A stretch of DNA of 46,552 nt from a virus: positions 1 to 46,552 of IMG/VR virus record IMGVR_UViG_3300038701_001423; one strand, written 5' to 3'. Below the pieces are notes generated by a model, which saw only the letters and a program-made list of their open reading frames with translations, did not search any database and was not told the DNA's origin. The position numbers were made by a program, and so were the translations under genes. Of the stretch, positions 1 to 46,552 are shown in pieces. How positions within the stretch are numbered: the first letter of the stretch is position 1; each line of letters opens with the position of its first letter.

Positions 1-253
1 ACGGAGCTTCTGAGCTTCGGCCTCTTCAAGCTCGCGCCTGCGGTCTTGGATCTTCTCGATGATCCGCGCAGCAGCGCCCTTGCGATAGGATACAGCCCAA
101 CGAGAGAAGCGCATATTGTTCTGGTCACCCAGACGTCCCATGACGAGGCGCTCGATTGTCTGCTCAAGGTACTCAGCCATAGCCTCGGTGCTACGCACAT
201 TGACTTGGCGCCCAACGACCCGGTGCTGGTGACGCAGACCATAGACGATCTCA
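1..253. repeat. Terminal overlap, left copy
   Basis: This stretch repeats at 46300-46552. I aligned the two copies by eye and found one difference: c at 128 against t at 46427. The repeat lies inside one reading frame on the minus strand and the frame is kept across the join. This marks a circular or circularly permuted genome of about 46,299 bp. An end inside a gene argues against a fixed functional terminus, but a true short direct terminal repeat cannot be excluded from sequence alone. Confidence 0.95.
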
Positions 254-594
254 GTGTACTTGCCGAGGTAATCCTTGCGCGTCACTTCACGCTTGTGATA
301 GTAACTGTGCGTCCAGTACATGCAGAAGTTGAGCTCAGCCACAGCCTGCCACAGGTCGCGCTGGTACAGGTAGGCACCGCCTTTCTTCTTAGCCTGTTCA
401 CGCTTGCCGCTGTTGGAGGAGCCTTGCTCAATGATAGCCATATCGATGTTATAGGCTGTCAGCATCTCCTGCGCACGCGCGGCTGCGTTGGCTGCTTCCT
501 CTTCATTGCCTTTCTTGCGACTGGCGAGAGCAAGCAGCTTCTCAACCTTCCGCACGATGGCCTGTTGTTCGTCGTCTAGTTCTTGGTGAGTCAT
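1..594 (-). CDS. DUF2786 family protein, N-terminal part (continues at 46299)
   Basis: The start is the ATG at 594-592, preceded by the leader GGAGACGAACG. The N-terminal 60 residues carry the DUF2786 pattern: a lysine-leucine helix (VEKLLALAS), an EEEAANAAARAQEML helix and a YNID motif. The rest is rich in charged and aromatic residues. The frame runs off the left edge and continues in frame through the terminal overlap to a stop at 45901, giving about 330 residues in total with an alanine/glutamate/arginine-rich coiled-coil C-terminus. Codon 128 reads GGT (Gly) here and GAT (Asp) in the right copy. DUF2786 proteins are common in phages and plasmids and have no firm function. It heads the next step of the leftward early arm. 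Confidence 0.85.
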   Translation of the reverse strand, partial: MTHQELDDEQQAIVRKVEKLLALASRKKGNEEEAANAAARAQEMLTAYNIDMAIIEQGSSNSGKREQAKKKGGAYLYQRDLWQAVAELNFCMYWTHSYYHKREVTRKDYLGKYTEIVYGLRHQHRVVGRQVNVRSTEAMAEYLEQTIERLVMGRLGDQNNMRFSRWAVSYRKGAAARIIEKIQDRRRELEEAEAQKLR

Positions 595-37408: not shown

Positions 37409-38209
37409 TCACTTGCCCCCCTGCACGAGGTCGTTGAGCTTGGCCAGAGCAATGCGTAGGGGGTGAGTGTCTTGACCGCTCAAGCCCTCGTTATCAGCCA
37501 TGATGTCCAACTGATTAAGAACGTCAGCGTAGGCTTCAGCAGCCAGCTCATTCTTCGGTCGGAAGAACATCTCAGCCCATGGCCACATCTCGACCACAGC
37601 CTCGTACATCTGGACTGCCAGCACGTTGAACTCGCCCTGAGCACGGTAGCTCATGCGCGCCTGCACGAGGTCGCTCAACATGCGAAGGTTGTACTTGGCA
37701 ATGAGATTGCAGTGCAGATTGACTGGCAGCAGGCCTCGTGCATCTTCGAGGGCCATGCCTTCTGCGACAGCGACTTTGTACTGAGAAATGTTCTCCATTA
37801 TTTTGTCGTCGTAATCTTGCTCAGCTTCAATATCACCGCGCCCAAACATAGGGTTGTGCCACGTAGCCTCAGACATGTCCGTAACGCGTTGGCTCTGCAT
37901 GGCGTAGGACCCGAAGAGGTCTCCATCGATAGGCGTGAAGCGTGTCCGAGTGATCTGTTGTGCGCAGGCGCGGCTGACGTCACGGATGCTGAAGGTAATG
38001 TCGAGGAACTCCCAGCTCGACCGGATGGTCTTGGACATGTAGTCCAACTGGTTGTGCATCCAGTCTGGTTCCGCTTGGCACTTGGCCTCGATCTCTTCAA
38101 GCAGAGACCCATTCATAGACAGGCGTGTTGACTTGGTGAAGATGAGCAAGGCAGCAGCCTTGATTGGGTCCCGCTCTGAAGCGGCGACGATCGTTACGTG
38201 TCGAGTCAT
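37409..38209 (-). CDS. thyX: ThyX-like flavin-dependent thymidylate synthase
   Basis: A 266-residue protein with DVSRACAQQITRTRFTPIDG then SYAMQSQR, and NLIAKYNLRMLSDLVQARMS then AQGEFNVLAVQMYE. The ThyX signature is R-H-R-x7-S. Here it is R88-T-R90, then an insertion of about 8 residues before SYAMQSQR. The rest of the fold is well kept. It makes dTMP from dUMP with FAD and methylene-tetrahydrofolate, or a variant of that chemistry. The start overlaps the FAD enzyme stop (ATGA). Confidence 0.85.
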   Translation of the reverse strand: MTRHVTIVAASERDPIKAAALLIFTKSTRLSMNGSLLEEIEAKCQAEPDWMHNQLDYMSKTIRSSWEFLDITFSIRDVSRACAQQITRTRFTPIDGDLFGSYAMQSQRVTDMSEATWHNPMFGRGDIEAEQDYDDKIMENISQYKVAVAEGMALEDARGLLPVNLHCNLIAKYNLRMLSDLVQARMSYRAQGEFNVLAVQMYEAVVEMWPWAEMFFRPKNELAAEAYADVLNQLDIMADNEGLSGQDTHPLRIALAKLNDLVQGGK

Positions 38210-39126
38210 GATTCTATCCTTTGGTTGTAGTCTACATGTCCATCGATCAAGCGTGCGATCACTTGAACGTCGTTAGGAATGTCATCCAGCAGAAGCTTGG
38301 GTCGCCAAGTCGCAAATCGCCCTAGAGAGTGGATGTTATGCTTGTCGCTGAGCCACATAATGAAGCGCTTGGCGCTCTCGCGTTCAGCAGAAGTCAGCTC
38401 CGAGATCTTCTGGTACTTGGACTGCTTGTAGCGTGCAGAGCAGAAGTCATGATGATGCATACCTATAGCAGAAACTGCTTGCTGAAGAACTTCGTATTCA
38501 TTAAAGTCTTCATGCTCACCGAGGCCTTCGACCATGAGAGATCTTGCTGTCACTGAGGCGCGGTAGAAGGGTTCGTCTCCTGGAAAGTAGACCGTAGCAT
38601 TCAAGTTGCATTGAAGGTGAGGAACGACTTCAGCCTTCAGGGTCCAACCTTCAAGCACATTGAACTCAGGCTTGTCCTTCCATTTGAACAGGTCCATCAT
38701 GTAAGGCAATGGCATCGTAGAGATGACCGGGGGGTGTTCCTTGATCAGGTTGGGTGTCCACTCCTCGAAGTCCTGCCCCAACTTGAACTCAGCAGTCTTA
38801 CTGAGGCGCTGAATGAAGTCTTGGGGAGCGATGTAGCGTTCAACTGGAGCAAGATCAGAGATTGAGCGGTTGGAATATCCCCCCGTCACCTTGCGACTGT
38901 AACGCACAGCGTCAGAGACAGGGTTCATTGAGCCAGAAACACCTTTGATAACCTTCACCCGTTGAAAGGGTATGTTGGTAGCTAAGCTGACTTCATCGCT
39001 GCGGAAGCGAAGGAGTGCTGCGTGGTTGTTAGGCAGTTTCTCTTGCCTCTCCATGATGAGAGGCTTCCGGTCAGAGAGCATCTTGGCGGCGATGAGCCCT
39101 GCCAATCCTGCGCCGAATATTATCAC
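38206..39126 (-). CDS. FAD/NAD-binding oxidoreductase-like protein
   Basis: The GTG at 39126 follows AGGA and places the Rossmann motif IIFGAGLAGLIAAKML at the N-terminus, as in this family; the frame is open further upstream but without support. The 306-residue protein also has the NNHAALLRFRSDEVSLAT segment and a C-terminal GRFATWRPKLLLDDIPNDVQ, typical of flavoproteins found in marine phages. It may supply or use the flavin redox step next to ThyX. The substrate is unknown. Confidence 0.78.
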   Translation of the reverse strand: MIIFGAGLAGLIAAKMLSDRKPLIMERQEKLPNNHAALLRFRSDEVSLATNIPFQRVKVIKGVSGSMNPVSDAVRYSRKVTGGYSNRSISDLAPVERYIAPQDFIQRLSKTAEFKLGQDFEEWTPNLIKEHPPVISTMPLPYMMDLFKWKDKPEFNVLEGWTLKAEVVPHLQCNLNATVYFPGDEPFYRASVTARSLMVEGLGEHEDFNEYEVLQQAVSAIGMHHHDFCSARYKQSKYQKISELTSAERESAKRFIMWLSDKHNIHSLGRFATWRPKLLLDDIPNDVQVIARLIDGHVDYNQRIES

Positions 39127-39130
39127 TTCA

Positions 39131-39709
39131 TTATCCTGCAAAGCGGTCTCCTTTGATCTCATGGTAACGGCGCATGAACATCTCCTTGGCGCGGTGCGGT
39201 TCGTAAGGATGGATGCGGAGACCGAGGGCTTGGTCAGAAGGGTACATCCAAGGAAAACTTTCATCGTTATTGGTGAAGAGTTGCTTACGTTCATCGACAG
39301 TGATTCGGTTATCAATGCTCTTGACAATCGGAGGCATTGAGGGTCGAAGGTCGAACTGTGTCGCGATAGCTTCCTCTGTCTTGCGTTCAATTGTCGCATA
39401 CAGGCCACCCATCATACGTTTGAGTGGACGGGTCACATCGCCAATGTATGCTTCAGATGCGTCGTGCAATAGAGCGTCCATGGCAAAGTGGTCAGGAACG
39501 TTGTGCGAAACAATCACCGAGTGCTGAGCAACAGAGTAGAAGTTATCTACGTGCCCGGCCCAACGGCAGACGTGGCTGAGGCCATGAGCAATATCCTCGA
39601 TGGTGAAGTCTTCTGGACGTGGATCCAAGGGCCAGTAGCGCTTGCCTGAATTGAGCAAGATCCAATCACCCTTTCGTCCTGTCTCTGGGTCGATTTGAAG
39701 CCCCATCAT
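39131..39709 (-). CDS. HD-domain phosphohydrolase (YfbR-like)
   Basis: A 192-residue HD hydrolase: SHVCRWAGHVDNFYSVAQHS, then LLHDASEAYIGDVTRPLK holding the HD pair and the D in the third motif. These enzymes dephosphorylate nucleotides such as dNMPs. Tandem ATGs at 39709 and 39706 follow AAGGA. The gene ends at the FAD gene start, so the two are coupled. Confidence 0.85.
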   Translation of the reverse strand: MMGLQIDPETGRKGDWILLNSGKRYWPLDPRPEDFTIEDIAHGLSHVCRWAGHVDNFYSVAQHSVIVSHNVPDHFAMDALLHDASEAYIGDVTRPLKRMMGGLYATIERKTEEAIATQFDLRPSMPPIVKSIDNRITVDERKQLFTNNDESFPWMYPSDQALGLRIHPYEPHRAKEMFMRRYHEIKGDRFAG

Positions 39710-43558: not shown

Positions 43559-44017
43559 TCATCGTTCATCTCCTGATCCAGATAGCTTATCGCGGTCTGT
43601 CCGGTCCTTGAGCTTCCGCAGATTAGTCGTGGCCGCTTCCGCCAAGGTGATGCCAAGCTCGTTGCAAATCGCAGAGAGATACCACAGGTTGTCTCCGACC
43701 TCTTTGATGATCAACGCACGGCGCTCTGGGGTGAGAGGTTTGGCTGGGCCCAACTGAGCGTAGATAGCTGTACAAGTCCCATCAGATTCGACCTGCTCTC
43801 CGACTTCAATGAGTTCGTCATCTCTCATAGCCTTGCCCACGTGCTCAGCCAACTCGCCAGCCTCGCCATTGAGTTTGAGCGCTACGTAGATGAGTCCCAA
43901 CGCTGTGCCTTGGCCCGGATAGAACGCACTCTTGGTCGCGGCTTGTTGGTAGTCATTCAGGTTGCCAGTGAGCCGGATCAGGTCCACGTCTGTCTGGGTG
44001 ATTCGATTGATAGTCAT
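43559..44017 (-). CDS. mazG: MazG-like nucleotide pyrophosphohydrolase
   Basis: A 152-residue protein with the MazG pattern: GLIYVALKLNGEAGELAEHV, ALIIKEVGDNLWYLSAICNE and EAATTNLRKLKDR. E-x-x-E and E/D pairs bind metal. The enzyme cleaves nucleoside triphosphates and may alter host stress nucleotide levels, as suggested for other marine phages. It overlaps the preceding gene's stop. Confidence 0.87.
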   Translation of the reverse strand: MTINRITQTDVDLIRLTGNLNDYQQAATKSAFYPGQGTALGLIYVALKLNGEAGELAEHVGKAMRDDELIEVGEQVESDGTCTAIYAQLGPAKPLTPERRALIIKEVGDNLWYLSAICNELGITLAEAATTNLRKLKDRTDRDKLSGSGDER

Positions 44018-44401: not shown

Positions 44402-45289
44402 TCATTCTAGATTCTCCATTGCGTGTTCAATCATTTCCTTGTCTTCCTCTTCGCGCAGCAGGGACTGGTCCCAGACATCCTCATCGCGGATCACAGACAC
44501 ATTGCGCTCAATGAGCTTGGATATGTAGTCTGGGTCGAGTGCGTCAAGCTCCCAAGACACATCTCCGAACTCAGCACGGTAGCTCTCGAAGCGAGCATCC
44601 GTCGACTTGGCAGGGTTTGGCGGTGGCGTTAGTTCCTCTATCTGGTCCATGTTGAGAGCGATGCGCTGCACCATGATGGGCGTCCCAGCGAACATGGTCA
44701 GTCTCTCAAGGTTGTCACGCGTCATATCGATGCCGCTGGGATCGTGGTCACCGAGATGCAGCACGAGGGGGCGTTGGCCCTTAGATATGTAATTCGCAAA
44801 ACGTTGCCCTGCACGCCACTGCTCGCTCTGCGAGTTGTAGCCCTTGCAAGCGAAGAAGTCAACGCGAAGCTTTGAGCAGATCTGCCCAACCACCCCCGCA
44901 AGGGCTTCTTTCTCTACCCATACCTCTGGGCGCCATTCTTGGTCGGCCCACAGATCCCGCTTGTAGCTGGCGAGCACTGAGCTCATGGCCTCGTTGGGGT
45001 GAGCGTAGGTGCGGTGGCCCATCAGGTTGCGCGTCCTGTCCTCGATGGCGGACCAACTGACCAGCCCGGCCAAGCGCCCTTGGCTCAGGGCATCCTTTAT
45101 GCGGTTGTACTCTGAGAGCTTGTTGGGAACGATGCCACGCGCCACGAACTGATAGTAGATTTGACGCAGAGTCAGACTGTAGCCGCGTGCTTGGTAGTCC
45201 TCGATGATGCCGTTGATGGCTTCAATGAGCTTGATCTTCGCTGGCTGGAAGTTGAAGCTCTCGTACTGGCGATATGTTCCGTTTTCCAT
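44402..45289 (-). CDS. Spo11/TopoVI-A-like TOPRIM protein
   Basis: A 295-residue protein. Residues 40-46, TLRQIYY, match the catalytic tyrosine motif of Spo11 and TopoVI-A (T.RdIYY). A TOPRIM domain follows: VEKEAL with E126, an ACKGYNSQS segment at 147-155 matching the TopoVI-A 'KG.P' step, and LGDHDPSGID at 179-188 with D181 and D183. Both modules in the right order make a shortened TopoVI A-type subunit. No B (GHKL ATPase) subunit is seen in the window. It may cut or relax DNA during replication or recombination. Confidence 0.8.
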   Translation of the reverse strand: MENGTYRQYESFNFQPAKIKLIEAINGIIEDYQARGYSLTLRQIYYQFVARGIVPNKLSEYNRIKDALSQGRLAGLVSWSAIEDRTRNLMGHRTYAHPNEAMSSVLASYKRDLWADQEWRPEVWVEKEALAGVVGQICSKLRVDFFACKGYNSQSEQWRAGQRFANYISKGQRPLVLHLGDHDPSGIDMTRDNLERLTMFAGTPIMVQRIALNMDQIEELTPPPNPAKSTDARFESYRAEFGDVSWELDALDPDYISKLIERNVSVIRDEDVWDQSLLREEEDKEMIEHAMENLE

Positions 45290-45477
45290 CAGAACCGATC
45301 CTTGACTATTATGAAAAGAACTGCGAGAGCAGAAACAGGCCAGAACACAGTCAAGAGGATTATGCCTGTTGGTCTGATGTCGAGGTCAGGCCTATCTTTA
45401 AGCGTCATCAGCAGCAAGAACAAGAACATTTGCGAGCCAGCCCAGTAATAGAACATTGCCATTTGATATTGAGTCAT
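45289..45477 (-). CDS. Small two-TM membrane protein, 62 aa
   Basis: The ATG at 45477 follows GGAGG. Two hydrophobic segments (MAMFYYWAGSQMFLFLLLMT and TGIILLTVFWPVSALAVLFI) joined by a short loop with two aspartates. The stop overlaps the Spo11-like gene start (ATGA). Function unknown. Confidence 0.65.
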   Translation of the reverse strand: MTQYQMAMFYYWAGSQMFLFLLLMTLKDRPDLDIRPTGIILLTVFWPVSALAVLFIIVKDRF

Positions 45478-45722
45478 GCCATTTCCTCCAGTTTGGTTTG
45501 TTTGGTTGAGCGAGATTGGTCGAGGGCGTAGCGCCAACGCAAGGCAACCCAGTTGCTAGTCATTTTAGGCAACTCCCCAACGAACCAACAGCAACCATTC
45601 AGGCAACCTTCGATCACTCCTTGTTCCATCTTTGTCTGGGATGTGTGTTCATGCTGACACTCGACTTGCACAAGAACGCCAACTTCAGGAATGCCTTCGT
45701 ATTGCCATGGTCCCCAGCTCAT
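45474..45722 (-). CDS. Hypothetical protein, 82 aa
   Basis: A beta-rich protein (VGVLVQVECQHEHTSQTKME; GCLNGCCWFVGELPKMTSNW) with several cysteines and tryptophans. It overlaps both neighbours by four bases. No family recognised, though its 'p.vG..V...' opening resembles small phage beta-barrel proteins. Confidence 0.65.
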   Translation of the reverse strand: MSWGPWQYEGIPEVGVLVQVECQHEHTSQTKMEQGVIEGCLNGCCWFVGELPKMTSNWVALRWRYALDQSRSTKQTKLEEMA

Positions 45723-45904
45723 AGACCTATCCTCCTTAGCTCTTCTCCAAGCTTCTGAAGCCTAGATATTGTAGCTCCATATAATTCAAGTTCTAAAGCA
45801 GCAGCCAATACAGGTTGCACTTGTTCGAGGATAATTAGATTCCCCTTAGGGTCTTCAAGTAATTCTCCAGAAACTCTTGTTGATTTGTATGTGAATCTTC
45901 TCAT
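45719..45904 (-). CDS. Hypothetical helical protein, 61 aa
   Basis: A short protein (NLIILEQVQPVLAAALELEL; ATISRLQKLGEELRRIGL), helical after an N-terminal basic stretch. The start overlaps the end of the DUF2786 gene and its stop overlaps the next gene. No family recognised. Confidence 0.6.
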   Translation of the reverse strand: MRRFTYKSTRVSGELLEDPKGNLIILEQVQPVLAAALELELYGATISRLQKLGEELRRIGL

Positions 45905-46552
45905 CCGATCAGTGCTCCAGTCTTGGTGCGATCTGACGTCTGGGGGTCGATCCCTACGTCATTAGCCTTGTCGTAGCCTTCCCAGTAGGCTCCGCTGTCA
46001 ACGTTGTCAGCCTTGGTGCGGCGCTTGGAGTAGCGAGCCCATTGCTTCTCTTCTCGCTTACGGCGCTTATCTTCTTCCTTGCGTGCTTCCTCAGGATTGG
46101 CAGCAGCCCACTGAGCGTACTCAGCATCAGCCTTGGCAGCGGCCTCAGCAGCCTTGCGGCGTTGTTCGGCCCAACGCGCACTAGTGCCTTCGCCGAAGCG
46201 ATGATCAATGTTGGCTTCACGCTCAGTCTTACGAACATCTGCGATGGTCACTGAAGTTGAAGTCGACACCCCCGCACGCTCAGCGCGGTGTTGCGCTTCA
46301 CGGAGCTTCTGAGCTTCGGCCTCTTCAAGCTCGCGCCTGCGGTCTTGGATCTTCTCGATGATCCGCGCAGCAGCGCCCTTGCGATAGGATACAGCCCAAC
46401 GAGAGAAGCGCATATTGTTCTGGTCATCCAGACGTCCCATGACGAGGCGCTCGATTGTCTGCTCAAGGTACTCAGCCATAGCCTCGGTGCTACGCACATT
46501 GACTTGGCGCCCAACGACCCGGTGCTGGTGACGCAGACCATAGACGATCTCA
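45901..46552 (-). CDS. DUF2786 family protein, C-terminal part (start at 594 across the junction)
   Basis: This frame is open to the right edge. Through the terminal overlap it joins the part at 1-594 and makes one protein of about 330 residues. The part seen only here is a long, charged, alanine- and glutamate-rich coiled coil (RRKAAEAAAKADAEYAQWAA, EDKRRKREEKQWARYSKRRT). The internal ATG at 46497 is not the real start. The C-terminus ends TKTGALIG. Confidence 0.85.
   Translation of the reverse strand, partial: EIVYGLRHQHRVVGRQVNVRSTEAMAEYLEQTIERLVMGRLDDQNNMRFSRWAVSYRKGAAARIIEKIQDRRRELEEAEAQKLREAQHRAERAGVSTSTSVTIADVRKTEREANIDHRFGEGTSARWAEQRRKAAEAAAKADAEYAQWAAANPEEARKEEDKRRKREEKQWARYSKRRTKADNVDSGAYWEGYDKANDVGIDPQTSDRTKTGALIG
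46300..46552. repeat. Terminal overlap, right copy
   Basis: Identical to 1-253 except t at 46427 for c at 128, which changes Gly to Asp in the DUF2786 protein. Confidence 0.95.

Follow-up and report, generated by a model that had tools for sequence, protein, structure and literature searches.

A B-less Mini-A protein of the Top6A/Spo11 group in a virus genome and its linkage to a DUF2786+DUF7168 gene

The 46,552-nucleotide stretch of viral DNA analysed here, hereafter called the window, encodes a protein that is almost certainly a Mini-A, a protein of the Top6A/Spo11 group with a shortened N-terminus and no B subunit. The family is already known and the window protein adds one further member to it; the linkage of a DUF2786+DUF7168 gene to Mini-A in the clade of the window protein is a new observation of this work. 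The best explanation of the data as a whole, to which we give a probability of roughly 0.6, is that Mini-A would be a DNA cutter working as a homodimer without a B subunit, with a role in replication or recombination, and that in this clade the DUF2786+DUF7168 protein would be its partner or controller.

The positions of the gene, of its motifs and of the neighbouring features are given in Table 1. The reading frame is a real protein-coding gene, since its divergence from the five nearest relatives falls mostly on the third codon position (about 0.55–0.61, against about 0.24–0.29 at the first and 0.20–0.24 at the second) and since 131 distinct proteins show virtually no variation at the motif residues, far above chance expectation. 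The protein consists of a short winged-helix part, bearing the predicted catalytic tyrosine, followed by a TOPRIM domain. The motifs listed in a preliminary description of the same DNA, T.RQIYY (residues 40–46), VEKEAL, CKGYNSQS (C148–S155) and GDHDPSGID, were all found in a protein of the length given there and in the TopoVI-A order.

Table 1. Location of the features discussed, numbered from the first nucleotide of the window.
Feature	Position	Strand	Remarks
Terminal direct repeat, left copy	1..253		252/253 identical to the right copy
DUF2786+DUF7168 gene, N-terminal part	1..594	minus	PF10979 match at 439-558 (minus), E 2.1e-13; 68% identity to the L002 copy
MazG-like pyrophosphatase	43559..44017	minus	Downstream of Mini-A in the same gene run; phrog_229, E 2.1e-32
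Mini-A (Top6A/Spo11-like) gene	44402..45289	minus	ATG start, TGA stop, 295 aa
E247 codon within WELDAL	44549..44551	minus	Likely counterpart of Top6A E342 (clasp), from motif order
GDHDPSGID codons (G180-D188)	44726..44752	minus	D181 and D183, predicted TOPRIM metal ligands
VEKEAL codons (V125-L130)	44900..44917	minus	E126, predicted TOPRIM metal ligand
TLRQIYY codons (T40-Y46)	45152..45172	minus	Y46, predicted catalytic tyrosine; R42, predicted clasp arginine
62-aa hydrophobic small ORF	45289..45477	minus	4-nt overlap with the 82-aa ORF; stop shares 1 nt with the Mini-A start codon
82-aa ORF	45474..45722	minus	Overlaps the 61-aa ORF by 4 nt
61-aa ORF	45719..45904	minus	Between the DUF2786 gene and Mini-A; 4-nt overlap with the DUF2786 gene stop
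DUF2786+DUF7168 gene, C-terminal part	45901..46551	minus	Upstream of Mini-A, same strand
Terminal direct repeat, right copy	46300..46552		One mismatch to the left copy

The window protein matches phrog_6247, annotated as "DNA topoisomerase", with an E-value of 9.6e-105, and the "DNA topoisomerase" of Pseudomonas phage NP1 is 44% identical to it at 91% coverage (E = 5e-70). This NP1 protein, gp49, is shown as the type example of Mini-A in a review (PMC7614492), and in reviews the family is presented as homologues of Top6A in truncated form, from phages and archaeal viruses. The short 'mini-A' relatives that the preliminary description had mentioned fit this published family. The window protein shares with gp49 its size, the order of the Tyr and TOPRIM motifs and the lack of a B subunit; it carries both motifs within the roughly 300 residues of a truncated Top6A, and its gene lies on a mobile element, as do the published members, whose carriers are phages, an archaeal virus and plasmids. 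Searches with tblastn found relatives in 76 of 50,697 phage records and in 42 of 72,556 plasmid records, with Streptomyces accounting for 33 of these 42, and a profile-guided scan found at least 581 viral contigs with a confirmed Mini-A relative. Archaeal plasmid proteins deposited as "Topo Mini-A" were among the matches to the window protein. The relatives further include the topoisomerase encoded by HCIV-1, a tailless virus of archaea.

The single sequence of the window protein gave no direct match in Pfam or the PDB. The profile match to the Top6A structure 1d3y was weak (E = 0.92), as were the matches to the Pfam family TOP6A-Spo11_Toprim, which were obtained for 2 of 20 Mini-A members with a best E-value of 0.009. 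The case for homology of Mini-A and Top6A is based on motif order, invariant residues, the top structural match and the published classification taken together.

Three of the relatives have peculiarities of their own. The 15-kb Paenibacillus durus plasmid L070, perhaps an extrachromosomal phage, carries a Mini-A at 50% identity together with a protein with a zonular-occludens-toxin domain. Around VEKEAL, the Mini-A of Clavibacter phage 33 (L064:5989-6975) has about 37 residues duplicated internally, through either a true tandem duplication or a faulty sequence assembly. For Roseobacter phage RDJL Phi 1 (L066:2962-3911) the match comes in two pieces, and the annotated protein, shortened at its N-terminus, has no Tyr region; the match in RDJL Phi 2 is in one piece, and the split in RDJL Phi 1 represents a broken frame or a sequencing error.

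The AlphaFold2 model of Mini-A, built with 48 sequences, had a mean pLDDT of 93.5 and a pTM of 0.86. Its top match among PDB structures was topo VI-A, and nothing else matched at E < 0.001 (M. mazei A subunits, E = 2.7e-4, probability 1.00). The modelled domains match those of topo VI-A but superpose poorly in their relative arrangement, which may differ; taken over the whole chain, the TM-score is no higher than 0.37. Mini-A and Top6A have the residues R, Y, E, D, D and E in the same order, and differ in that Mini-A is about 60 residues shorter ahead of the tyrosine (45 residues, against 105 in Top6A) and has no Top6B.

The conservation of single residues was counted over 131 distinct relatives, of which 130 rows reach Y45, Y46 and R42. 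The glutamate E126 and the aspartate D181 are kept in all 131, D183 and E247 in 130 of the 131, and R42 in 129 of the 130. The sole exception for D183 is the Mini-A of HCIV-1 (L067:3920-4948), which has Asn at this place (GDFNPSG). Homologues lacking the tyrosine, which had been named beforehand as evidence against the assignment, were not found, Y46 being present in every one of the 130 rows; Y45 is a tyrosine in 122 of them. The preliminary description had proposed Y45/Y46, E126, D181 and D183 as the residues to be conserved, and this holds for all of them except Y45. As Y45 is less conserved, Y46 is the predicted catalytic tyrosine, in agreement with mouse SPO11, in which the second of the two tyrosines is catalytic (PMC11922746). 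The order of R42, Y46, E126, D181, D183 and E247 follows that of R102, Y106, E202, D254, D256 and E342 in M. mazei Top6A (PMC13040014), with a spacing of four between the arginine and the tyrosine and of two between the aspartates in both proteins. By this alignment of motifs, E247 is the likely counterpart of Top6A E342.

Five actinobacterial plasmid Mini-A proteins, from Streptomyces and Rubrobacter (L069, L167, L168, L169 and L170), all have Gln at the position of E247, and the same five have lost K127. The change E342Q makes M. mazei Top6 prone to cleavage (PMC13040014), and in these plasmid proteins what appears to be the counterpart of this change occurs naturally.

Mini-A has no detectable B subunit. 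The direct repeat of 253 bp at its two ends shows that the window is an essentially complete genome of about 46.3 kb, circular or terminally redundant, though the record is listed as linear, and for this reason the absence of a GHKL or Top6B gene from it is informative. The ATPase domain HATPase_c (PF02518) and the Top6B transducer domain (PF09239) were searched for in 52 Mini-A records, namely the window and 51 others, among them 18 from phages or archaeal viruses and two from plasmids that were deposited as complete genomes; neither was found in any of them, while the positive controls were detected, although a highly divergent ATPase partner could escape such an HMM search. The earlier remark that the window has no GHKL ATPase thus stands, and a hidden Top6B gene was rejected. 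In lacking a Top6B subunit with GHKL and transducer domains, the window protein departs from topoisomerase VI. It resembles Topoisomerase VIII in being a type IIB relative on mobile elements, but Topoisomerase VIII has a B-type ATPase part, which is absent from both the window's Mini-A and its genome.

How such a protein might act is suggested by mouse SPO11, a dimer with hybrid active sites that cuts DNA in the absence of any B subunit and is also able to reseal nicks (PMC11922746). With this precedent, we infer a homodimer mechanism for Mini-A. A homodimer would assemble on phage DNA, and Y46 of one subunit would combine with the metal site of the other, formed by E126, D181 and D183, to give two hybrid active sites. 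These would nick or break the duplex independently of ATP, leaving a 5'-phosphotyrosine link, and the breaks would be resealable until the dimer comes apart. Placed in an early module, the enzyme would introduce programmed nicks or breaks into phage DNA during its replication, leading to recombination-coupled replication or to the release of entanglement. Mini-A probably cleaves DNA in a tyrosine-dependent way; the residues needed for double-strand cutting with a covalent 5'-tyrosine link, as in Spo11, are conserved in it. Mini-A would share with Spo11 the nature of a Tyr/TOPRIM cutter able to act as a dimer without a B subunit, a feature established for Spo11 and predicted for Mini-A; it differs from Spo11 in being phage-borne and shorter and in having no meiotic partners, and their relation is drawn via Top6A. 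No biochemical study of any Mini-A was found in the literature covered, and a 2021 review lists no such work on the archaeal proteins. Should Mini-A cut DNA unaided, it would provide a very compact model system for the Spo11/Top6A reaction, as well as a phage-made source of programmed breaks.

The main rival reading is that of a resealing and relaxing enzyme: Mini-A would be mainly a stand-alone topoisomerase, which nicks or cuts DNA, lets it swivel and reseals it, so that supercoils ahead of replication are relaxed without ATP and no lasting breaks are left. SPO11 dimers relax plasmids through swivelling and reseal nicks (PMC11922746), the Topo VIII enzyme from M. marina needs no ATP to relax DNA (PMC7614492), and Mini-A keeps the clasp pair R42/E247, which in Top6A holds cleavage low (PMC13040014). 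We nevertheless consider this reading possible but doubtful, as no ATPase for strand passage is encoded and as the Top6A latch (residues 44–67), which Top6 requires for the relaxation of supercoils, lies 39–62 residues ahead of the tyrosine and has no room in the 45 residues available in Mini-A. The lack of a B subunit and the lack of room for a latch both count against ATP-driven strand passage.

The TOPRIM domain also recalls the JetD and MksG proteins of the Wadjet and MksBEFG systems, whose TOPRIM-dimer fold is related to that of Top6A and whose dimers are endonucleases. Mini-A could accordingly be a hydrolytic nuclease of this type, the tyrosine not being the nucleophile, and weak matches to DUF2399 were in fact obtained for 2 of 20 Mini-A members (best E = 1.6e-4). 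This is very improbable, since the 5Y-CAP-like domain of MksG has no tyrosine candidate, whereas Y46 of Mini-A is invariant, and no PADLOC model was matched. Moreover, JetD and MksG have no winged-helix tyrosine and act with SMC complexes. A role as a defence system was also rejected because of the lack of a PADLOC match.

For the B-less homodimer that we prefer, the gene order around Mini-A provides a candidate partner. Over 132 Mini-A loci the commonest neighbouring gene encodes some 350 residues and combines a DUF2786 with a DUF7168 domain; in the window it spans both ends of the contig. The window protein sits in a tree clade of 19 proteins (support 99%), and in 19/19 of them this gene lies upstream on the same strand; 18 of these came from automatic clustering and the nineteenth, L006, from a PF10979 search with ORF inspection. 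The next most shared neighbour was found in 4 of the 18, and in many members the end of the DUF2786 gene overlaps the start of Mini-A by 1–8 nt. No report of this linkage, or of the Gln variant, was found in the literature covered, which did not include the original Mini-A paper (Takahashi et al. 2020). The linked gene is the first concrete partner candidate for a Mini-A, and whether it replaces the B subunit is now directly testable. In the clade of the window, Mini-A and the DUF2786+DUF7168 protein are inherited together, the latter probably serving as a functional partner or controller.

The same linkage could be taken to mean that Mini-A needs a substitute for the B subunit, which in this clade would be the DUF2786+DUF7168 protein, and the constancy of the arrangement, the clade support and the frequent overlaps speak for it. 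This reading is unlikely. The other Mini-A clades are without the gene, so it is not generally required for Mini-A, and three phages in the phage records have the gene with no Mini-A beside it, so it can stand alone; in the window itself, three small genes separate the two. In addition, the model of the protein (pLDDT 81.5) matched no solved structure (best E = 0.25) and has no ATPase fold, so that a remote GHKL or TopoVI-B was rejected. Quite improbable, too, is the bolder proposal that Mini-A and the DUF2786+DUF7168 protein represent a new two-part, ATP-independent phage machine for breaking DNA, in which the latter would replace the B subunit and gather Mini-A monomers on DNA by a logic like that of Spo11 and its accessory proteins. 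Profile comparison of the DUF2786 protein with Mini-A showed no similarity. When the DUF2786 protein was searched against viral contigs, nothing but two very close copies turned up, so that the cases of this gene lacking Mini-A are drawn from phage records.

The window protein falls in a clade separate from that of NP1, where a DNA ligase gene lies upstream of Mini-A and a Sak4-like gene is next downstream, instead of the upstream DUF2786+DUF7168 gene. Helicases, primase/helicase, DNA polymerases, an HNH nuclease and terminase recur among the neighbours of Mini-A, and the Mini-A of Microbacterium phage Fizzles lies close to a gene for a Cas4-type exonuclease. From these neighbour genes alone, we infer that Mini-A belongs to a replication/recombination module; a role in recombination-coupled replication in particular has about an even chance. 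Packaging, which the preliminary description had offered next to replication and recombination, is disfavoured, since a role specific to it would hardly fit relatives that reside on circular plasmids or in an archaeal virus without a tail.

A link to the hypermodification of thymidine, suggested by the aGPT-Pplase genes of Pam3, was also rejected. In the window, thymidylate synthase is represented by ThyX, and what is labelled "polynucleotide kinase" is a phosphatase of the PNKP type; other Mini-A carriers show either deazaguanine genes or no recognisable set of modification genes. The HAD-type PNKP phosphatase and ThyX adjoin the gene at 38206-39408 of the window, which encodes a phrog_4828 protein with a nucleotide-binding start of the GAGLAGLIAAK type.
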